A DNA stretch of 64,000 bases from Verrucomicrobiaceae bacterium E54 (GTDB taxonomy: Bacteria; Verrucomicrobiota; Verrucomicrobiia; Verrucomicrobiales; Akkermansiaceae), in the NCBI GenBank assembly GCA_022548915.1, contig JAKZES010000008.1:1-64000 (forward strand), given 5' to 3'. Positions 7,280 to 45,947 of the stretch are shown here, piece after piece. A program made the translations under genes and the position numbers. The notes under the pieces were generated by a model. The model saw only the letters and a program-made list of their open reading frames with translations, was not told the origin of the DNA and did no database searches. Each line of letters opens with the position of its first letter. Position 1 is the first letter of the stretch.

Positions 7280-9070
7280 GTGACGATCCGCCGACTGATC
7301 TGCGCCGGGCTCCTGCTCGCGCCCCTCCTGCCCGCCCAGGAGAACCTCTTCATCCAGACGCCGAACGCGACCCATCCGAAGGACAAGACCCGGATCGAGG
7401 TCGAGTCGCTCTTCAGCATGGCTCCGCCCACCGGCTACCTGCCGCTGCGGGTGACCGTGGTGAACCAGCGGAAGAACGACGGGCGCCTGCGGCTCCGGTG
7501 CCTCTCGGAAAGCGGGGTCGATCCCCAGGACAGCGCGATGGAATCGGAGTTCTCCATCGAAAGCACCGCCGGCACGGCCAAGACGACCGATCTCCTCGTT
7601 CCGCTGACGACCCGCTTCGATAGCTCCGGCTACGAAGGCCTGTCGGTGCAGGTTCTGATGTCCGGAAGCTTCGGCGGCAACAACGGCAGCCTTTCCTGCA
7701 ACTTCCATCCCGACGGTCCGGCCATCCTGATGAGCGAACCGCTCTTCACTCCGAACTCATCGGCACTCGACGCCCAGCTCAACTCGACCCGCTCCGGCGG
7801 CTACGGCAGCTACACCTTCGCCGCCCGTTTCACGCCCTCGAAGCTGCCGGAGGACTGGCGTGCCTACTCGGGCTACGACGTGATCATGCTCACCGACGAC
7901 GACTGGGGCGGCATGCCGCCCGGTGCGAGGGCGGCGGTTCTTCAGTGGATCCGCCTCGGCGGCGTCGCCTCCATCTATCGCCGGGCCTCGACCAGCTTCG
8001 GCACCCTGGGCATCGAGACCCAGGAGGCCGGCAACAGCACGACCTACGGACTCGGCACCATTGAACTGCTGAATCAATCAGGCTCAACGCCCACGGGCCT
8101 CGACGCCAAGAAGACCGTCAACCGCTACCACACGTCCCGTGGCGGGCTCACCATCGACGCCCTCAGCGAGAGCATCTCCGACGACTACTCGTCCGGGTGG
8201 GCGCTGCAGGACGAATTCGGCAAGCAGAAGTTCGACTACCTCATCTTCATCATCGTGCTGATCGCCTTCGGCGTGCTGGTCGGCCCCGTCAACCTGTTCG
8301 TCTTCGCCAAGTCCGGCATGCGCCACAAGCTGTTCATCACCACGCCGGTCATCTCGATCGCGACCAGCGTGCTGTTGATCGCCCTGATCCTGATGCGTGA
8401 CGGCACCGGCGGCCGCGGCGCCCGGATCGCCCTGATCGAGGTGCGTCCCGAATCCGGGGAAAACCGGGCCTACGTCGTCCAGGAGCAGGTCAGCCGCACC
8501 GGCGTCCTGCTCGGCAGCTCGTTCAAGATCGACGAGGACTCGGCGATCACACCGGTGCCGATCGCCAACAGCGCCTGGGCCCGCTTGACGCCCGGCGTGG
8601 GCGGGGCGGGCATGCGCTTCACCGGCAACTTCACCGAGGGCGGCATGGAGATTTCCGGCGACTGGTTCCAGAGCCGGTCGGAGCAGGGCCAACTGATCCG
8701 CGCCGTGGTCCCGACACGGGGACGGATCGAGCTGAAAGGTGCCGGCGGAGCGCCCACCTTCGTTTCCACCTACGACTTCCCGGTCGAGCGGCTCTACTAC
8801 GCGGACCGTAGCAATGGCTACTGGATGGTGCGCGACCTCGAGGCAGGCAAGGCCACGACCGGCACCCCGATCAGCGAGGCTGAATACCGCTCGGCCGTCG
8901 GCGATGAATCGAGGCGCCTCGCCCGGCGTCAGCGCGAACAACTCAACCGTGTCTCCAAGCGAGCCGACCACTACGTCGCCGTCGCCACCGAAGCCCCGGC
9001 CATCGAGACCTTCGACGCCATCAACTGGGTCGACACCCGCACCATCCTCACCGGCCCCGTGCTGCGCTGA
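7280..9070 (+). CDS. Exported membrane protein of unknown function in the MoxR cluster
   Basis: 596 residues from a GTG start 2 nt after the moxR stop codon. An N-terminal signal peptide (LICAGLLLAPLLPAQ) precedes a ~300-residue extracytoplasmic region. Two transmembrane segments lie near residues 320-375; the first runs into the motif GPVNLFVF, the second is the stretch around ISIATSVLLIALILM. A second beta-rich domain of about 200 residues follows. The GPVN motif between the two helices recurs, as I remember it, in membrane proteins of MoxR/ABC-2 clusters. No enzymatic motif is visible. Position between moxR and the ABC-2 genes suggests it is a structural or regulatory part of the same membrane system. 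Confidence 0.75.
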   Translation: MTIRRLICAGLLLAPLLPAQENLFIQTPNATHPKDKTRIEVESLFSMAPPTGYLPLRVTVVNQRKNDGRLRLRCLSESGVDPQDSAMESEFSIESTAGTAKTTDLLVPLTTRFDSSGYEGLSVQVLMSGSFGGNNGSLSCNFHPDGPAILMSEPLFTPNSSALDAQLNSTRSGGYGSYTFAARFTPSKLPEDWRAYSGYDVIMLTDDDWGGMPPGARAAVLQWIRLGGVASIYRRASTSFGTLGIETQEAGNSTTYGLGTIELLNQSGSTPTGLDAKKTVNRYHTSRGGLTIDALSESISDDYSSGWALQDEFGKQKFDYLIFIIVLIAFGVLVGPVNLFVFAKSGMRHKLFITTPVISIATSVLLIALILMRDGTGGRGARIALIEVRPESGENRAYVVQEQVSRTGVLLGSSFKIDEDSAITPVPIANSAWARLTPGVGGAGMRFTGNFTEGGMEISGDWFQSRSEQGQLIRAVVPTRGRIELKGAGGAPTFVSTYDFPVERLYYADRSNGYWMVRDLEAGKATTGTPISEAEYRSAVGDESRRLARRQREQLNRVSKRADHYVAVATEAPAIETFDAINWVDTRTILTGPVLR

Positions 9071-39163: not shown

Positions 39164-39736
39164 TCACCCGTCCCCGCCGAGAGCCGCTCCCAGCATCTTC
39201 AGATAATCATCCCGCGTCACCTCGTAGCCACCGAACTGCCGCAGGTGATCGGTCATCCACTGGGTGTCCAACAGCACCGCCCCCTCGCTCTTCAGCCAAT
39301 CCACCAGGTGCACCAGCGCGATCTTCGACGCATCGGTTTTCCGGGAAAACATGCTCTCGCCGAAGAAGCCCCGGCCGATCCGGACCCCGTAGAGCCCGCC
39401 CTGAAGCCCCTCTTCGTCCCAGCACTCCACCGAATGGGCGAATCCTTGCTCAAACAGGCCGACGTAGCTGGCCACGATCGTCTCGTCGATCCATGTCTCG
39501 GCGCGCTCGGCGCAGGCCCGCATCACGGCCTCGAAGGCGGTGTCGCGCCGGATCTCGAAGGGACGCTTCTTCAGAGCGCGCCTGAGCCCCCTGGGCACAT
39601 GAAAGCGCTCATCCAGCGGGATGACACCCCGGAACGTCGGAGAGAACCACAGGATCTCCCCCTCCTCGGCCATGGGAAACACCCCCTGGCCGTAGGCCCG
39701 GAGCAGGATCTCGGGAGGAATCGCCGCCGACATCAA
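39164..39736 (-). CDS. aat: Leucyl/phenylalanyl-tRNA--protein transferase
   Basis: 190 residues. Characteristic segments: LLRAYGQGVFPMAEEGEILW then FSP at 11-33, SVECWDEEGLQGGLYGV then RIGRGFFGESMFS, and DTQWMTDHLRQFGG near the C-terminus. These match Aat enzymes, which add Leu or Phe from tRNA to basic N-termini of proteins for ClpAP/ClpS degradation. Its start overlaps the stop of xseA by 4 nt (ATGA). It is the last gene of the closely packed tRNA-His/HNH/rtcB/xseA/aat series. Confidence 0.95.
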   Translation of the reverse strand: MMSAAIPPEILLRAYGQGVFPMAEEGEILWFSPTFRGVIPLDERFHVPRGLRRALKKRPFEIRRDTAFEAVMRACAERAETWIDETIVASYVGLFEQGFAHSVECWDEEGLQGGLYGVRIGRGFFGESMFSRKTDASKIALVHLVDWLKSEGAVLLDTQWMTDHLRQFGGYEVTRDDYLKMLGAALGGDG

Positions 39737-41112
39737 CCCTCGCGCCGGTCGATTTTGCGCACCTCACTGACGGCCTCGCCATCGCGGAGCTTGGTCCGCA
39801 GCTCGGCACCCTCCCGCACCTGGTCCACCGAACGCACCGCCCGGCCCTCATGATCGAGCGTGATCGAAAAGCCCCGCTCGAACGCCGACTCCGGACCGAG
39901 CGCCCGCAGCAGTCCGCGCAGATGATCCAGGCGTTCCTCCTGGCCCGCCAGACGCTGCTCGACCGCCCGGAAAAGGCGGCGCGACAGGTCGACCGCCGCC
40001 TCGCGCTGACGCTCCAGCCGCCGCTCCGGCCGAACCGTTTCCAGCGACCGAGCCACCGCCCGGACTTCCAGCACGCGGTCGCGCCAAGATGCCTGAACCG
40101 CCCCCCGAAGCCTCTCCCTGAGCCCGTCGACCCGCATCGCCGGCTCGCGCAGCAGGCGATCCCCGCCGCGCGAAAGCACGCCCCGCCGTGCGTTCTCCAG
40201 CACCAGGTCGAGCCGACCCAGGCGATCCTCCACGCGGCGCCCCAGGCGGCTCCGCAAGGCATCGATCCGGCCCCGCAGCTCATCGCCCGACGGCACCGCC
40301 AGCTCGGCCGCCGCACTCGGCGTCGGCGCCCGCAGGTCGGCGACAAAGTCGGCGATGGTGAAGTCGATCTCGTGCCCGACCGCCGAGATCACCGGGATCG
40401 GACACCCGGCGATCGCCCGCGCCACGATCTCCTCGTTGAAGTTCCACAAGTCCTCCAGCGAGCCGCCACCGCGCCCGACGATCAGCACGTCGGCACGAGG
40501 CAGGTCGTACTTTTCGGGCTCACCCATCCGCCGGATGGCCCCGGCGATCTCCCGTTCGGCGCCCTTGCCCTGCACCCGCACCGGCAGGAGCACCGGCTCC
40601 ACCCACGGCGCGCGCCGCTCCAGCACGTTGAGGATGTCGCGGATGGCCGCACCGGTCCCGGAGGTGATCAGACCGATCCGCATCGGAAACGCGGGCAACT
40701 CCCGCTTCCGCTCCGCCGCGAACAAGCCCTCCGCATCCAGCTTCCGCTTGAGCGCCTCGAAGCGCGCCTGAAGCTCGCCGACCCCCGCAACCTCGACCTT
40801 CTGGACGATGATCTGCAGCTGCCCGCGCGCCTCATAGACGCTCGGCTCGGCGAAGACGCGGACCTTCACCCCATCCTCCAGAACCTCCGCCCCCGGCCGC
40901 CGCCGCGCGCCGAACATCGCGCAGGAAATCTGGGCCTTCTCGTCCTTGAGCGAAAAATACCAGTGCCCGCTGCCCTGTTTGCGCAGGTTCGACACCTCGC
41001 CCTCGACCCACTGCTCGCCCAGCTCGACCTCCAGCAGATTCTTCATCCGCCGCACGAGCTGGGTCACGCTGAGCGCCTTCTTCTCCTTGCCGTCACCGAA
41101 AAGTTCCACCAC
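39733..41112 (-). CDS. xseA: Exodeoxyribonuclease VII large subunit
   Basis: 459 residues from a GTG at 41112 (VVELFGDGKEKKALSVTQ); an ATG start at 41169 would add 19 residues that do not look conserved, and the exact start is uncertain. The OB-fold N-terminal domain shows WVEGEVSNLRKQGSGHWYFS. The catalytic domain carries RIGLITSGTGAA and the signature LIVGRGGGSLEDLWNFNEE. Long coiled coils rich in Arg/Glu (about 290-410) follow, as in ExoVII large subunits. The enzyme degrades single-stranded DNA; the small subunit gene xseB is not in the window. It starts 73 nt after rtcB and overlaps aat. Confidence 0.95.
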   Translation of the reverse strand: MVELFGDGKEKKALSVTQLVRRMKNLLEVELGEQWVEGEVSNLRKQGSGHWYFSLKDEKAQISCAMFGARRRPGAEVLEDGVKVRVFAEPSVYEARGQLQIIVQKVEVAGVGELQARFEALKRKLDAEGLFAAERKRELPAFPMRIGLITSGTGAAIRDILNVLERRAPWVEPVLLPVRVQGKGAEREIAGAIRRMGEPEKYDLPRADVLIVGRGGGSLEDLWNFNEEIVARAIAGCPIPVISAVGHEIDFTIADFVADLRAPTPSAAAELAVPSGDELRGRIDALRSRLGRRVEDRLGRLDLVLENARRGVLSRGGDRLLREPAMRVDGLRERLRGAVQASWRDRVLEVRAVARSLETVRPERRLERQREAAVDLSRRLFRAVEQRLAGQEERLDHLRGLLRALGPESAFERGFSITLDHEGRAVRSVDQVREGAELRTKLRDGEAVSEVRKIDRREG

Positions 41113-41185
41113 CGGATGATGCCGTATCCTTCGTTTCCGGCAAGCCAGACCCCAAGCCGCGAAAGGCATTGAAGTCGGGTCGCAC

Positions 41186-42715
41186 TCACCACTCCTTCAT
41201 CTCCTGGTTCGTCCGGCGCCGCTCCTTGCGATGCTGGATCTGGCGTTTCTGCTTCGGCGTGAGTTCCTCCTCGCGGCTGAGCCACGGTTTCGGAACGTCA
41301 CCCGCCATGATGCAGCCGAGAGGACGGATCTGCGCGACGATCTCCGCCAGTCCGAAATCACGGATCTGGGCCGTGACACTGGCGGCATTCTTGTAGGCCA
41401 CCGGAGTCTCGCTGAGGTCCGGCTTTCCGCAGTACCAACGCACGTCGATGCCATCGGTCGACGACTCGATCTGATGACGCCGGGCGTCCTCACTTGGGAA
41501 CTGCCGCTTGAGCGCCGTCCGCGACATGTTCCGCCCCGCACCGTGCGGCGCGAAGGAGAGGAACTCCTCACGGTCGCCACCCAGCACCAGCAGGATCGGC
41601 TCCGCCATGTTCAGCGGGATCAAGCCGAGCCGGGGCCGACCATCCGAGTCGCGCCACGCCGGCGTCGCGCCCTTGCCGTGCATGAACATGTCACCCCGTT
41701 GCCAGACGAAGTTGTGCTCGTTGCCGACCTCGGCCGATGACACCCCGCCAATCCGCTCAAGGAAGCGGCGATGGATCACCTCGTGGTTTGCCCTGGTCCA
41801 CAACGAGACATACTTCAGTGCTTCCCAGTAGTTGCGACCGACGTCCGACTTCATATCCAGCCAGGCCGCAGCCGGCGGGATTCGATCCGCCTCGCGCTCG
41901 GTGTGCTTCAGCGCCGCGTGCTGGCCACGTTTGTAAACCGCCGCACCGAGACCCCGCGAACCGTGGTGGGTCACCAGCACCCGGTAGCTCGGCTGAGCAA
42001 GCTTCCCGGCCAGATCCTCGTAACCCGCCAGCCGCAGCATCGCGCGCATCGGTTCATCGACCGCCACCTCGCCCACGTAGGCGAAGTGGTTGCCGTCGCC
42101 CTGGTCCGCAAGGTGCGCATGCGCACGGTCACGCAGCCCCTTGAGGAAGGGATTGCCCCACACATCATGATCGAGCACCGGGTCCTCGACCAGATCGTCG
42201 AGATGCCGGTGCCCCATGCCGAAGCGAGTCGCCGAGGTCAGGGCATCGAGTTCCTTCGCCACCGTGCTGCGGGCCTCGTAAAAGGTCGCAAACATCGAAC
42301 AGCAGATGTCGGCCGAGTGGGCGGACGGGATCACCGCGTTCTCCACGGCGATTGCTCCGCCCACCGGAATCACGGCACGGCCCGGTCCTGCCGGACACGC
42401 ATCCGGCATGATCGCGCCACGCTGGATCACCGGGACCTTGAGGAGTTCATCCATCCTGGTTCGGACGGCCGCGACGTTCTCCCGCTCCTCCTTGCTCGCC
42501 GGGCGGATCGCCTCGGTAAAGGGAACGGCCCTCTTCCGCAGCACCGCCTTGGGCGGCGGCGGTTCGAAGTCGCGGCGCAGGAGCTTGAGAAGATACTTCT
42601 TCCCGCTCACGCCACGCGCTTCGTATTCCGCGGCGCGAGCGAGCATTTCCTTGAAGACCGGACCCGGACGGTAGCCCGCCGCGATCAGATCTTCGCCTGT
42701 GAGTGTTGATTTCAT
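41186..42715 (-). CDS. rtcB: RtcB-family RNA ligase with tRNA-enzyme-like N-terminus
   Basis: 509 residues. RtcB motifs: SADICCSM (metal ligands D136 and C139), DQGDGNHF at 204-211, HHGSRGLG at 250-257, and NEHNF at 332-336. HGAGRNMSR follows at 391-399, where H391 is the guanylylated histidine. The family joins 2',3'-cyclic phosphate or 3'-phosphate RNA ends to 5'-OH ends using GTP and Mn2+. The first ~30 residues (LTGEDLIAAGYRPGPVFKEM) look like the C-terminal tRNA-binding motif of CCA-adding enzymes, an unusual extension. The gene overlaps the HNH gene upstream by 4 nt (ATGA), and a tRNA-His gene is just beyond. Confidence 0.95.
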   Translation of the reverse strand: MKSTLTGEDLIAAGYRPGPVFKEMLARAAEYEARGVSGKKYLLKLLRRDFEPPPPKAVLRKRAVPFTEAIRPASKEERENVAAVRTRMDELLKVPVIQRGAIMPDACPAGPGRAVIPVGGAIAVENAVIPSAHSADICCSMFATFYEARSTVAKELDALTSATRFGMGHRHLDDLVEDPVLDHDVWGNPFLKGLRDRAHAHLADQGDGNHFAYVGEVAVDEPMRAMLRLAGYEDLAGKLAQPSYRVLVTHHGSRGLGAAVYKRGQHAALKHTEREADRIPPAAAWLDMKSDVGRNYWEALKYVSLWTRANHEVIHRRFLERIGGVSSAEVGNEHNFVWQRGDMFMHGKGATPAWRDSDGRPRLGLIPLNMAEPILLVLGGDREEFLSFAPHGAGRNMSRTALKRQFPSEDARRHQIESSTDGIDVRWYCGKPDLSETPVAYKNAASVTAQIRDFGLAEIVAQIRPLGCIMAGDVPKPWLSREEELTPKQKRQIQHRKERRRTNQEMKEW

Positions 42716-43371
42716 TCCGATTGAAAAGGGGTTCGGGAGCGGAGCCGAAGCTCCGCTCCCTGGGGTTGGCCCCTACTTCTTGAGGAAGCTGAGCCAGTGC
42801 TCAGAAAGAATTCCCATTCAGGAATCTTCCAAAGATTCCTGAGTCGCACGACTTTCGGCACCGGTTGCGGCGCGGCGGGCTGCCTGAGCAGCCTGAGCCC
42901 CGCTTCCTCGGGAGTCCTCGCACCTTTCCGACGGTTCACCTCCTTGTCGGAAAGAACGCAGTTCTCCCAGCCGTCCACGCCGCCCCGCGAGCGCGGGATC
43001 ACGTGGTCGATGTCGGCCTCGTGCCGGGCAAGCCGGCGACCGGTGTACTGGCACCGCCCGCCATCGCGCATCCAGAGACCGTCGAGCCCGAAGCTTGGCA
43101 CGTGCATCGGCACCCGATCGAAGTGGTTGAGCACCAGGACGGCAGGAATCCGGACCGGCCCGCGGGGAGTTCCGACGGATCGAGTGCCCGCATCCAGTGC
43201 CAGCCAGGCCTCCCAGTCGAGAGGTTCGACCGACCCGTCTTCGATCCGCAGTGCACGGGCACTGCCCGAGGCGAGATGAAGGAAGGCGTCCGCGGGAGTG
43301 ACCGCGTCGATGGCCAGCCAGTGCCGGTTCAGAACCAGCACGGAAAGTTGATGGAGGAATGGAGTCGTCAT
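42712..43371 (-). CDS. HNH endonuclease
   Basis: 219 residues. The N-terminus (VLVLNRHWLAIDAVTPADAF then LHLASGSARAL) is the scaffold typical of small HNH nucleases of the IceA-like group. The HNH core is CQYTGRRLARHEADIDHVIP then RSRGGVDGWENCVL, with H123, N137 and N146 of the helix SDKEVNRRKG. Only one zinc-type cysteine (C108) is visible, so the metal-finger part is reduced. The gene begins 15 nt after a tRNA-His gene on the same strand and its stop overlaps rtcB (ATGA). A nuclease paired with a repair ligase and a tRNA suggests RNA cutting and rejoining, or DNA cleavage in an unrelated role; this is inference. Confidence 0.85.
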   Translation of the reverse strand: MTTPFLHQLSVLVLNRHWLAIDAVTPADAFLHLASGSARALRIEDGSVEPLDWEAWLALDAGTRSVGTPRGPVRIPAVLVLNHFDRVPMHVPSFGLDGLWMRDGGRCQYTGRRLARHEADIDHVIPRSRGGVDGWENCVLSDKEVNRRKGARTPEEAGLRLLRQPAAPQPVPKVVRLRNLWKIPEWEFFLSTGSASSRSRGQPQGAELRLRSRTPFQSE

Positions 43372-43386
43372 GGATGGAAGAGTGTT

Positions 43387-43461
43387 TGGGTTGACCTACC
43401 GGACTTGAACCGGCCCCGCCGCAATCACACTGCGGGATGCTACCACTACACCAAGGCCAAC
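43387..43461 (-). tRNA. tRNA-His (anticodon GTG)
   Basis: The reverse strand folds as a tRNA. The acceptor stem TTGGCCT pairs with AGGTCAA (one G-U). The extra G at -1 faces discriminator C73, the His identity element, and CCA is encoded. The D arm is GTGT-AGTGGTA-GCAT, the anticodon stem CCGCA/TGCGG holds loop GTGTGAT with anticodon GTG (positions 34-36), and the T arm is GCCGG-TTCAAGT-CCGGT. Position 32 is G instead of the usual pyrimidine, and the D stem holds two wobble pairs. The tRNA is 15 nt upstream of the HNH gene on the same strand. It may be the regular cellular tRNA-His or a dedicated copy. Confidence 0.9.
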
Positions 43462-43676
43462 ATTTTTGCTCGAAGACATAACTTACCCGTCGCTCAGCAC
43501 ACCGCCTCCCGCACCCATGGTGCATCGGACGAATGAACAGCGGATCAAGCCACGCCTCGTGAGACATGATATGTTCTCGAATCAGGATATTTCGTGTTTC
43601 AATGGGTTCGACATGAGGCCGCGAATTCAGGTTTGAATATTGGGATTCATCCAGCTTCACCGGATCACAAGGACGC
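43462..43676. other. Intergenic region upstream of tRNA-His
   Basis: 215 nt, more AT-rich than its surroundings, between the terminator of the small unit and the tRNA. A promoter for the tRNA should lie here, but no convincing -35/-10 pair was found; TAAGTT near 43478-43483 (reverse strand) is the only weak -10 candidate. Nothing else was recognised. Confidence 0.5.
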
Positions 43677-43707
43677 AAAAAAGCCCGCTTCCCAGTGGGG
43701 AGCGGGC
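43677..43707 (-). terminator. Strong rho-independent terminator of the small unit
   Basis: On the reverse strand an 11-bp stem (GCCCGCTCCCC / GGGAAGCGGGC, one wobble pair) with a 3-nt loop is followed by six T residues at 43682-43677. It sits 25 nt after the stop codon of the 57-aa ORF and ends the transcript before the tRNA-His gene. Confidence 0.85.
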
Positions 43708-43731
43708 GTCTTGAATCCGTGAATCGAGGCG

Positions 43732-43905
43732 TCAACCGCCTCTCGAGGACAAACACCGGCTCCCGCAGTCATTCGGGCAGGAACGGAGACCATGACCAAA
43801 CTTCTCAAGCATGAGAAAACCTGGAGCATCCACCACCTCCTCGAGACCCAAACCTGCAATCATGCAAGGGGCGCTGAGCTTCGTAATGGCGGTTGAATAA
43901 TTCAT
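43732..43905 (-). CDS. Candidate 57-aa small protein (or an sRNA with an ORF)
   Basis: An ATG at 43905 opens 57 codons. The product begins MNYSTAITKLSAPCMIAGLG and ends with the cysteine-rich stretch SCPNDCGSRCLSS, where C43, C47 and C51 are spaced CxxxCxxxC; C14 is the fourth Cys. No homologue is recognised and no Shine-Dalgarno sequence precedes the ATG, so coding status is unsure. The support comes from context: a good sigma-70-like promoter is about 24 nt upstream, a terminator lies directly downstream, and together they define a ~245-nt transcript. If not translated, it would be a small RNA. A modified peptide precursor is one speculative possibility. Confidence 0.4.
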   Translation of the reverse strand: MNYSTAITKLSAPCMIAGLGLEEVVDAPGFLMLEKFGHGLRSCPNDCGSRCLSSRGG

Positions 43906-43928
43906 GGCAGGATTCGGTTGCGGGCGTG

Positions 43929-43957
43929 GGAATACATATCTCCCGCAATTGGGTCAA
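43929..43957 (-). promoter_or_regulatory. Sigma-70-like promoter of the small unit
   Basis: Reverse strand: -35 TTGACC at 43957-43952, a 17-nt spacer, -10 TATTCC at 43934-43929, and AT-rich sequence upstream of -35 resembling an UP element. Transcription would start near 43922, leaving a leader of about 17 nt before the 57-aa ORF. Confidence 0.65.
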
Positions 43958-44026
43958 CCTAAAATAACAATTCTTTCATCATCGATGCATCACAAGCGAT
44001 ATGGGGAAAGCAAATGTGCCATGGAC

Positions 44027-44431
44027 TCACTCGCCACCCTGCCGCGTCTCGAGCGTCTTGAGCAGAATGCGCAGGGCACCGCCCGAAATCCAGACCTCGA
44101 CCATCAGACAGGCCAGCGACAACCCCATCAGCGCCAGCGCGGTTCCGAAGCACGAGACCGCCAGCCACTGGACGCCACCGATGACCGCGAGCATCGACAC
44201 CACGCAGAGAAACAGACTCACCGCCCCGAAAAACTGCATCCAGCGGATCAGCGTGAGGCGGCGTCGCAGGTTGGAGATCTGCCGCATCAGCGTTTCATCC
44301 CGCTCGGTCGTCCACGCGCCGTAGAGCTGGCGGATCAATGCCGCCAGGTGGAGGAAGCGGTTGGTGAACGACAGGAACAGGAGGCTGATCGCCGGGAACA
44401 GGAGTGCGGGTGTGGAGACTTCGAGGGTCAC
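44027..44431 (-). CDS. DUF2721 membrane protein
   Basis: 134 residues from a GTG at 44431, whose product MTLEVSTPALLFPAISLLFL has the usual DUF2721 start; another GTG at 44485 would add 18 residues. The first hydrophobic helix (about 6-25) is followed by NRFLHLAALIRQLY and a charged helix DETLMRQISNLRRRLTLIRW. Two further helices near 70-115 lie around FFGAVSLFLCVVSMLAVIGG and FGTALALMGLSLACLMVEVW. The family is an integral inner-membrane protein of unknown function. It is divergent from the cardiolipin synthase gene. Confidence 0.85.
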   Translation of the reverse strand: MTLEVSTPALLFPAISLLFLSFTNRFLHLAALIRQLYGAWTTERDETLMRQISNLRRRLTLIRWMQFFGAVSLFLCVVSMLAVIGGVQWLAVSCFGTALALMGLSLACLMVEVWISGGALRILLKTLETRQGGE

Positions 44432-44513
44432 GCCCGCTTGTAGCTGCCCGGATGCGCGCCGACGAGGCTCGGTTCCTGCTTTCACCCACGCCCGGGACTG
44501 CTAGAAAGGGGCG

Positions 44514-45947
44514 GTGCCTGAACTTGTTTCACCCCCGTTCCTGACGCTGCTCGGTCTCGTGCTGCTCCACGCGATCGGAATCGGGCACATCGTGCACGTG
44601 CTGATCCACGGCCGGACGGCCCAGGGCACGATCGCCTGGATCGTCTGCATGGCGGTGCTGCCGTGGCTGGCGATTCCCTTCTACTGGATCGCCGGTCGGC
44701 GGCGCTTCACGGGCTACGTCCGGGCACGCCGTTCCGAGGACGAGGACGTGCGCCGGACCCTGGAGGACCTCCACCGTCGGCTCAGGGAATACGAGCTCGA
44801 GCCCGACGACGCCTTCGGCCGGGCCGCCCGGACCCTCGGAGGACTTCCTTTCACCAAGGGCAACGACATCGAACTGCTGATCGACGGCGACGAAACCTTC
44901 ACCGCCATCTTCCGCGCCATCGCCTCGGCGGAGAATTACCTGCTGGTCAACTTCTTCATCGTGAAGAACGACCTCGTCGGGAGGAAGTTCCAGCAAGCCC
45001 TCATCGAGCGCGCCCGCAAGGGTGTCCGGGTCTTCTTCCTTTTCGATGAAATCGGATCCCACAAGCTCCCCAACGCCTACCTGGCCGAGATGGAGGACGC
45101 GGGCATCGAGTGCCATTCCTTCGGCACCAACCGCTTCTGGTGGTCCCGCCTCCAGATCAATTTCCGCAACCACCGCAAGATCGTCGTCGTCGACGGCCGC
45201 GAGGCCTTCATCGGAGGCCTGAACGTCGGCGACGAGTACCTCGGCCGCGACAAGAAGTTCGGCGCATGGCGCGACACCCACCTGCAGCTCCGCGGACCCA
45301 CCGTCCAGGCCATCCAGCTGGTCTTTCTGGAGGACTGGAACTGGGCCGCCGACGAGCGCATCACCGGCCTCGACTGGGACGGCGACCCGCAACCCCACGA
45401 CGAGATCACCGCCATCCTCCCCACCGGCCCGGCGGATCCGGCGGACTCGTGGCAACTGATCGTCGCCGAAGCCTGCAACAGCGCGAAGCAGCGCCTGTGG
45501 ATCACCTCTCCCTATTTCGTCCCCGACGCCGGCGTGCTGACCGCTCTCCAGACCGCGGCCATCCGCGGGGTCGATGTGCGGATCCTGCTTCCCGAAAAGG
45601 CCGACCACCGGATGGTCTGGCTCGCCGCCTTCACTTTTTATGAGGAAACCCTCCCCTACGGCATCCGGCTGTTCCGCTACCACGAGGGCTTCCTTCACCA
45701 GAAGGTCATGCTCGTCGACGACCGCTACGGCTTTGTCGGCACCGGCAACCTCGACAACCGCTCGTTCCGCCTGAACTTCGAGATCACCGCCGTGACCACC
45801 GACACCGGATTCATCGGCGAACTCACGGAAATGCTGGAGAAGGATTTCGATCGGTCCCGCGAGGTCGAGATGGAGGATTTCACGAAAAGTCATGTCCTCT
45901 TCCGGCTCGCATGCCGGGCCGCCCGCCTCGCCGCTCCGGTGCTCTGA
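44514..45947 (+). CDS. Cardiolipin synthase-like phospholipase D family protein
   Basis: 477 residues from a GTG start. Two N-terminal membrane spans (about 8-30 and 38-60) are followed by two PLD domains. HKD 1 is N-H220-R-K222 with D227, followed by GREAFIGGLN; HKD 2 is H395-Q-K397 with D402, followed by GFVGTGNLDNRS. The C-terminus FTKSHVLFRLACRAARLAAP is typical. ClsA-type enzymes condense two phosphatidylglycerols to cardiolipin in the inner membrane. The gene precedes mdh on the same strand, 141 nt apart. Confidence 0.93.
   Translation: MPELVSPPFLTLLGLVLLHAIGIGHIVHVLIHGRTAQGTIAWIVCMAVLPWLAIPFYWIAGRRRFTGYVRARRSEDEDVRRTLEDLHRRLREYELEPDDAFGRAARTLGGLPFTKGNDIELLIDGDETFTAIFRAIASAENYLLVNFFIVKNDLVGRKFQQALIERARKGVRVFFLFDEIGSHKLPNAYLAEMEDAGIECHSFGTNRFWWSRLQINFRNHRKIVVVDGREAFIGGLNVGDEYLGRDKKFGAWRDTHLQLRGPTVQAIQLVFLEDWNWAADERITGLDWDGDPQPHDEITAILPTGPADPADSWQLIVAEACNSAKQRLWITSPYFVPDAGVLTALQTAAIRGVDVRILLPEKADHRMVWLAAFTFYEETLPYGIRLFRYHEGFLHQKVMLVDDRYGFVGTGNLDNRSFRLNFEITAVTTDTGFIGELTEMLEKDFDRSREVEMEDFTKSHVLFRLACRAARLAAPVL

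Follow-up and report, generated by a model that had tools for sequence, protein, structure and literature searches.

What does a single tRNA-His gene do immediately in front of genes for an HNH nuclease and an RNA ligase? This question is raised by a locus on the minus strand of contig JAKZES010000008.1 of Verrucomicrobiaceae bacterium E54 (assembly GCA_022548915.1), of which positions 1 to 64,000, here called the window, were analysed. A first-pass annotation had noted the order tRNA-His, HNH, rtcB and proposed a self-contained system that monitors, cuts or repairs tRNA-His. Our analysis points to another answer: the locus is probably a compact translation-stress and RNA-repair operon, a reduced single-tRNA form of a module with the layout tRNA array - HNH - (slipin) - (GNATs) - RtcB. 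Across a bacterial order, tRNA arrays, one HNH family and RtcB are thus tied together physically in one module, and the link is backed by a clear-cut control. The window locus is its minimal three-gene version, simple enough for knock-out testing, and why spare tRNAs accompany RNA-repair genes in bacteria and phages thereby becomes a directly testable question.

Organisation of the locus

ARAGORN identified a tRNA-His(gtg) at 43387–43460 (minus strand) as the sole tRNA gene in the window, which with one tRNA in 64 kb does not hold a long tRNA array (L-array). Base 43461 provides G-1, which pairs with C73, and CCA is encoded, so that the gene spans 43387–43461 and combines the cloverleaf, the GTG anticodon, the G-1:C73 pair and the CCA end of a tRNA-His. 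It is followed by a pyrimidine-rich spacer of 15 nt (43372–43386) and, on the same strand, by the HNH gene, which starts at 43371 (42712–43371, 219 aa). The HNH gene in turn overlaps rtcB (41186–42715, minus strand, 509 aa) by 4 nt, ATGA. Both the 15-nt distance and the overlap agree with the first-pass annotation.

The same annotation had suggested that one transcript could carry all three genes. A terminator between tRNA-His and HNH is excluded because the gap is only 15 nt, and a consensus scan of 41000–44600 reported neither a minus-strand terminator nor a sigma-70-type promoter (other promoter types lay outside the scan). The gap before HNH contains no Shine-Dalgarno sequence. Judged from spacing and from the conservation described below, tRNA-His, HNH and rtcB likely constitute one transcription unit.

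Conservation of the unit in the genus

The HNH gene was found in 16 of 18 genomes of the window's genus, with 59–100% identity, as compared with 29–36% for the paralogs in the genus. The window-type RtcB subfamily, which we call RtcB1 to separate it from a second subfamily, RtcB2, was encoded downstream on the same strand in all 15 loci whose contigs reach far enough; in the 16th (G005) the contig stops short of that point. Between HNH and rtcB, 14 of the 16 loci have one to five GNAT genes (counted in G005 from HNH to where the contig stops) and four have a slipin-like (Band_7) gene, whereas the window has neither kind there. The GNAT and slipin genes in these loci were called by tblastn; Pfam confirmed Band_7 in all four slipins and Acetyltransf_3 in the three GNATs of one locus (L077).

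The tRNA is less constant. ARAGORN placed a tRNA-His 14–31 nt before HNH in nine of the 16 loci, and according to a consensus search allowing up to 3 mismatches, 11 of the 18 genomes contain the tRNA core, each time at this locus, with one further 3-mismatch match elsewhere in G013. In G005, G007, G009, G012 and G017, ARAGORN, the pattern search and visual inspection of the 330 nt upstream all failed to reveal a tRNA. In G006 (L085) and G011 (L082) about 70 extra nt split the tRNA-His behind C56 of the T-loop and end in a repeated tRNA 3' end; this looks like an insertion scar at the tRNA and could be the trace of an island attachment-site event. The tRNA as an island attachment site was considered in general; the window tRNA, for its part, is not the housekeeping copy. 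Four of the nine recognisable tRNA-His genes have a defect in the acceptor end: G-1 is absent in G008 and G013, the acceptor stem has a mismatch in G002 and G003, and the encoded CCA is missing in G003 and G013.

The module in related genera, and a paralog control

Two sets of loci, drawn partly from the same genomes, were used to follow the association beyond the genus. The HNH-based set held 80 named chromosomal loci, the best 80 of 460, and 44 of these had at least 5 kb on both sides of the gene. Same-strand tRNA genes were located within 5 kb upstream in 19 of the 44 (73 tRNA genes, 1–12 per locus), and none of the 44 had tRNAs on the opposite strand or downstream. RtcB was present in 21 (10 of type 1 and 11 of type 2), and tRNA and RtcB occurred together in 12. 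When the window's own genus was left out (n = 38), tRNA was seen in 14, RtcB in 15, both in 7 and neither in 16. Two layouts were apparent, one with RtcB1 downstream of HNH and one with RtcB2 upstream of it.

The RtcB1-based set consisted of 20 loci from other genera of the family. HNH was present in 11 of them (one partial), and same-strand upstream tRNAs in seven (L317, L319, L320, L322, L327, L328 and L336), six of which include a tRNA-His, the exception being L336; L327 and L328 are close relatives. The combination of tRNA(s), HNH and RtcB recurs in L317, L320, L322, L327 and L336. The conserved order for which the first-pass annotation had proposed to look is thus found within the genus and beyond it, and is not confined to this genome. 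In L319 a tRNA-His lies within 80 nt before RtcB1 and no HNH was found there; in L324 a tRNA sits between HNH and slipin; and the more diverged RtcB1 loci L330–L335 have neither HNH nor tRNA.

Two kinds of locus are especially informative. That of Roseibacillus persicicus (L182 / L322) reads 9 tRNAs - GNAT - HNH - Band_7/slipin - RtcB1, with both the Band_7 and the Acetyltransf_3 kinds confirmed by Pfam in L182, and by its gene order appears to be the full form of the window operon. L182 also shows a partial tRNA match after the HNH gene (7680–7736). In Haloferula rosea (L117), a cultured relative, the order is tRNA-His - HNH - GNAT - RtcB. The other kind (L133 and L138) reads tRNA array - RlaP - RtcB2 - HNH - HNH, in which RlaP, an RNA-repair nucleotidyltransferase (PF10127), was matched at 3.3e-90 and 7.2e-91; by its gene content this appears to be an operon for RNA repair that is joined to an array of tRNAs.

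As a control we examined paralogous HNH genes (about 29–37% identical; 21 loci of 30 places), with approximately 6 kb on either side. No tRNA was detected by ARAGORN (0/21) and no RtcB by tblastn (0/21). This result, together with the strand and side bias of the tRNAs, led us to reject a chance neighbourhood.

HNH relatives on phage contigs and plasmids

The HNH family is also represented on viral contigs. Among 80 such loci, whose flanks were often short, 37 had same-strand tRNAs within 5 kb upstream and none had opposite-strand tRNAs upstream; downstream tRNAs were on the same strand in 11 and on the opposite strand in 4, and a tRNA was present on either side in 46. The last tRNA ends 19–53 nt before the aligned HNH start in nine loci (L194–L197, L200, L201, L237, L238 and L269), while in L258, L262 and L263 an array of 12–15 tRNAs follows HNH instead. 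RtcB of types 1 or 2 was encoded near HNH in only three of the 80 (L193, L198 and L199), and these may be bacterial contigs.

Eight named plasmid and phage relatives, chosen to spread over taxa and with HNH matches of 29–36% identity, were inspected individually. Six sit within or next to tRNA arrays with 16 or more members: those of Nostoc, Mycolicibacterium, two Variovorax, Synechococcus phage S-CBWM1 and Tunturiibacter phage Tunturi_5. The last of these (L279) has, within 14.5 kb, 16 tRNA genes, a member of the HNH family, an annotated tRNA-splicing ligase and an S6 glutaminyl transferase. RtcB and the S6-modifying RimK both belong to the Anabaena TrcR regulon, according to PMC10272220.

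The tRNA-His is a second, divergent copy

The first-pass annotation had suggested searching the genome for another tRNA-His(GTG). One is present: ARAGORN reported two, the window copy and a housekeeping copy at G000:C210:26693-26765. The notion that the window gene is the only tRNA-His of the genome, and hence essential, was rejected on this ground. The two copies are 71% identical, compared with 89.5% between the housekeeping tRNA-His and one from another family (L380). Identity is higher, at 81% in each case, between the window tRNA-His and two others: one in L099, a locus from a different genus within the family, where it lies upstream of RtcB2-HNH, and one preceding RtcB1 in L319. The genome has 43 Rfam tRNA matches, of which 42 are above the cut-off, and the window copy scores lowest among the 42 (44.3 bits against a gathering score of 29; the next has 54.9). 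A SNORD58 match in Rfam stayed below its gathering score.

To judge the fold, nine sequences from the genus were aligned with those of L317 and L319 (n = 11). In this alignment 97.5% of the cells pair, versus only 36–44% for slid structures, and G-1:C73 is retained in nine of the 11. Two-sided changes occur in seven pairs, while shuffles gave a mean of 3.1 and none of 500 was as high, a test that is inflated by the relatedness of the sequences. The pattern argues that selection acts on the fold of window-type tRNA-His.

The HNH protein resembles a DNA nuclease

The HNH product, a member of the tRNA-array-associated HNH family as judged by its relatives' loci, matches Pfam HNH_4 above the cut-off (7.9e-11) and has both the profile and the D-H...N...N-K site of the family (PF13395 / PF01844). 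D122, H123, N137, N146 and K149 are invariant across 15 relatives; across 81 relatives H123, N137, N146 and K149 remain so and D122 nearly so. A structure prediction from the 81 sequences reached a mean pLDDT of 90.7, compared with 62 for a poor first model built on 15. Residues 91–168 of the model match Cas9-type HNH domains, best that of NbaCas9 (Z 11.0, rmsd 2.4, 78 aligned), and the conserved D122, H123 and N146 fall where Cas9 has its catalytic residues. The nuclease domain itself (residues 99–157, 42901–43077, minus strand) has a Cas9d/IscB-like fold according to profile and predicted-structure matches. The N-terminal domain (about residues 10–90) gave no match in the whole-model fold searches, in which it was not searched alone.

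That the protein is a small Cas9 or IscB was rejected: the match covers a domain of about 60 residues, the protein has only 219 aa, and the profile scores were 51.5 bits for Cas9d (cut-off 375) and 24.5 bits for IscB (cut-off 175). PADLOC gave weak Cas9, DpdF and PtuB domain matches for HNH, and no match for RtcB. By its predicted fold, then, the protein appears to be a nuclease of the DNase type, like the HNH domain of Cas9d. Cas9-type HNH enzymes leave 5'-phosphate and 3'-OH ends, and RtcB seals 3'-phosphate to 5'-OH. Because of this end chemistry and the DNase-type fold, the HNH protein would be unsuited as the cutter whose products RtcB reseals.

RtcB1 is a predicted RNA ligase

The rtcB product scores 134 bits against Pfam RtcB (PF01139; cut-off 27, E 9.6e-39), and its residues 197–469 align with solved RtcB chains. 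The D-x-x-C, GNHF, HxGSRG, EHN and HGAGR motifs, which we take to comprise the metal and guanylylation residues, are all present, and RtcB1 is accordingly a predicted RNA ligase. It belongs to a divergent, phage-like subfamily: it matches the phage RtcB family PHROG 1075 at 3.2e-79, identity with the best of its named phage relatives is 42.6%, and RtcB1 and RtcB2 are about 33% identical to each other.

Proposed function and alternative explanations

In the mechanism that we propose, the transcript would start in 43462–43676 and the spare tRNA-His would be cut out by RNase P and 3' processing, which would leave HNH and RtcB on an mRNA with hardly any leader. Under stress that cleaves host tRNAs, RtcB would re-ligate the halves with 2',3'-cyclic-phosphate and 5'-OH ends, and the array-type tRNA-His would serve as a backup that tops up the tRNA pool. 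HNH would most likely be a DNA nuclease that accompanies the arrays and maintains or spreads them, or that attacks incoming DNA, and not the cutter of tRNA-His.

Several observations weigh against an operon of this kind. Neither tRNA nor RtcB lies within 5 kb in 16 of the 44 chromosomal HNH loci; nine of the 20 RtcB1 loci lack HNH, some of them on short contigs; and two of the eight plasmid and phage relatives (Acaryochloris and Methylobacterium) are without tRNA. In part of the genus the lone tRNA-His is decaying. The parallel with the Anabaena regulon, described in the last section, is one of gene kind: the HNH of the Nostoc plasmid array is only 30% identical to the window type, and no similarity was seen between the GNAT next to that array and the one from Verrucomicrobia with which it was compared.

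The decay leads to the alternative that survives best, to which we attach a limited but real probability: the tRNA-His may be the last leftover of an ancestral array, surviving at most as the processed leader at the 5' end of the HNH-rtcB mRNA, and unimportant for translation. Its absence from five of the 16 genus loci and interruption in two, the loss of G-1 in two and the acceptor mismatches in two of the nine that are present, and the existence of a housekeeping copy are all in line with this. On the other hand, the fold appears to be under selection, with G-1:C73 largely kept, and outside the genus His was retained in six of the seven RtcB1 loci with upstream tRNAs. The latter is a real hint that something may be special about the isotype, but shared ancestry and the small number have to be kept in mind.

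An improbable alternative sees in HNH a free-standing DNA endonuclease of the homing type, which carries tRNA genes and their neighbours from replicon to replicon, with RtcB as a passenger. The Cas9d-like domain and the frequency of the family in phage contigs and plasmids with tRNA arrays would suit such a unit, as would the proposal, made in PMC5966550, that HNH genes diversify the tRNA sets of arrays. However, the genus keeps HNH together with RtcB1 and colinear GNAT and slipin genes, and the linkage of two RtcB subfamilies to HNH, RtcB1 downstream and RtcB2 upstream, is not predicted for a passenger.

Least credible is the tRNA-His circuit of the first-pass annotation, in which HNH cuts or monitors tRNA-His and RtcB reseals it: the tight order with the HNH/rtcB overlap, the recurrence of tRNA-His among reduced arrays and the L319 arrangement speak for it, but it is unsupported and very unlikely because a housekeeping tRNA-His exists, the tRNA is lost from five of 16 genus loci while the operon stays (in G005 RtcB would lie beyond the contig end) and interrupted or defective in others, relatives' arrays span many isotypes, and the HNH is of the DNase type, with end chemistry unsuited to RtcB.

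An altered elbow in array tRNAs

The RNA-repair operon that we favour has larger relatives whose tRNAs show a peculiarity of their own. We surveyed 32 Verrucomicrobiota array loci (a few fetched twice), counting identical tRNAs once, which gave 214 distinct sequences. Position 18 was assigned simply from the D-loop dinucleotide, GG or AG; on this basis 131 combined A18-G19 with G55 and 53 combined G18-G19 with U55; three were GG/G55, none AG/U55, and 27 fell elsewhere. Clustering at 80% identity (n = 111) gave 60 AG/G55, 32 GG/U55, 3 GG/G55, 0 AG/U55 and 16 elsewhere. A18-G55 thus replaces the near-universal elbow contact G18-U55 with near-perfect covariation, in loci including L088, L098, L100, L107, L133, L138 and L183–L185, and because of this replacement the array tRNAs concerned cannot carry pseudouridine 55. 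The housekeeping tRNAs have G18-U55 (41/41 in the window's genome and 28/28 of those examined in the array-bearing G054), and the swapped elbow occurred in 18 of 193 viral-contig tRNAs and one of 156 in the named plasmid and phage arrays. The elbow of the window tRNA-His is canonical. In the 9-tRNA array of Roseibacillus persicicus only the tRNA-His has a G55 T-loop, the other eight being canonical.

In Staphylococcus aureus, non-proteinogenic tRNA-Gly isoacceptors have the GG at 18-19 replaced by UU or CU (PMC4052509), so that a changed elbow can be the sign of a tRNA that takes no part in ordinary translation. Literature searches by titles and beginnings of abstracts, with most subscription papers outside their coverage, did not return the elbow swap in arrays. 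We tentatively entertain the idea, itself rather doubtful, that Verrucomicrobiota keep an inducible shadow tRNA set with its own repair and nuclease genes, of which the window locus would be the smallest form. A18-G55 may let these tRNAs escape nucleases or enzymes that read the elbow, RtcB1, RtcB2 and HNH would be specialised for the set, and tRNA-His would be the isotype whose replacement matters most under attack. If the array tRNAs are expressed, the swap offers a testable hint that spare tRNAs are built to resist something.

Flanking features

Upstream of the unit, a terminator-like hairpin with a T run and one stem mismatch (43677–43707, minus strand), read directly from the sequence and likewise not reported by the consensus scan of 41000–44600, closes the DUF2721 gene. 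About 215 nt are left between it and tRNA-His for a promoter of the unit's own, and 43462–43676 (minus strand) is likely its promoter/operator region. In seven of eight genus genomes searched (G007–G010, G012, G013 and G016) the block GGAGAAYTGTTGTC, with up to 1 mismatch, stands before the operon, some 20 nt ahead of the tRNA or, where that is lost, at the place it once held; it was retained in three genomes whose tRNA is gone. The block was not found before the operon in G003 with up to 1 mismatch, 11 further matches lie elsewhere across the eight genomes, and the window's own copy has diverged. We regard GGAGAAYTGTTGTC as a candidate promoter or operator. Downstream, xseA and aat (39164–41169, minus strand; ORFs with Pfam matches) start 16 nt after rtcB and are possibly co-transcribed with it. 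The product of aat is leucyl/phenylalanyl-tRNA-protein transferase, which uses aminoacyl-tRNA as well.

Comparison with known systems

Literature searches by titles and beginnings of abstracts, with most subscription papers outside their coverage, returned no tRNA-HNH-RtcB operon in Verrucomicrobiota. The rtcBA/RtcR operon of E. coli and Salmonella has RtcB as its RNA ligase in common with the window, where this role is predicted. It differs in its partners: the rtcB neighbours in the window are HNH, xseA, aat and DUF2721, and neither RtcA nor RtcR is among the three of these that were scanned (xseA, aat and DUF2721).

Another parallel is with phage RNA-repair sets. Phages, jumbo phages among them, pair tRNAs with RtcB-like or Rnl2 ligases, and some Rnl2 ligases are fused to an HNH domain (PMC7824862); Tunturi_5 combines tRNAs, the HNH family and an annotated ligase. 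In contrast to these sets, the window unit is a chromosomal, genus-wide operon, and the scanned neighbours xseA, aat and DUF2721 are not phage genes.

In mycobacterial plasmid and phage arrays, HNH genes are the most widespread coding genes and have been proposed to diversify the tRNA sets (PMC5966550), and we found an HNH relative on pCBMA213_1 inside a 29-tRNA array. RtcB has no occurrence in the main text of that paper, whereas the window HNH is joined to RtcB and to one tRNA.

A parallel in the kinds of gene is offered by Anabaena sp. PCC 7120 with its trn operon and TrcR regulon. As described in PMC10272220, the repressor TrcR silences an operon of 26 supernumerary tRNAs that is induced by antibiotics targeting translation, and a trcR mutant raises RtcB 77-fold, HNH genes 17- and 7-fold and slipin 42-fold, plus GNATs. 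A Nostoc plasmid array resembles the module similarly, with GNAT and HNH genes shortly before 24 tRNAs. If the likeness extends to regulation, the window operon would be induced by translation stress as well. The Anabaena genes differ in being scattered over plasmid and chromosome under a ribbon-helix-helix (RHH) repressor (same source), whereas the window holds a single chromosomal unit, unusual in that the array is cut down to one tRNA and joined with HNH and RtcB.

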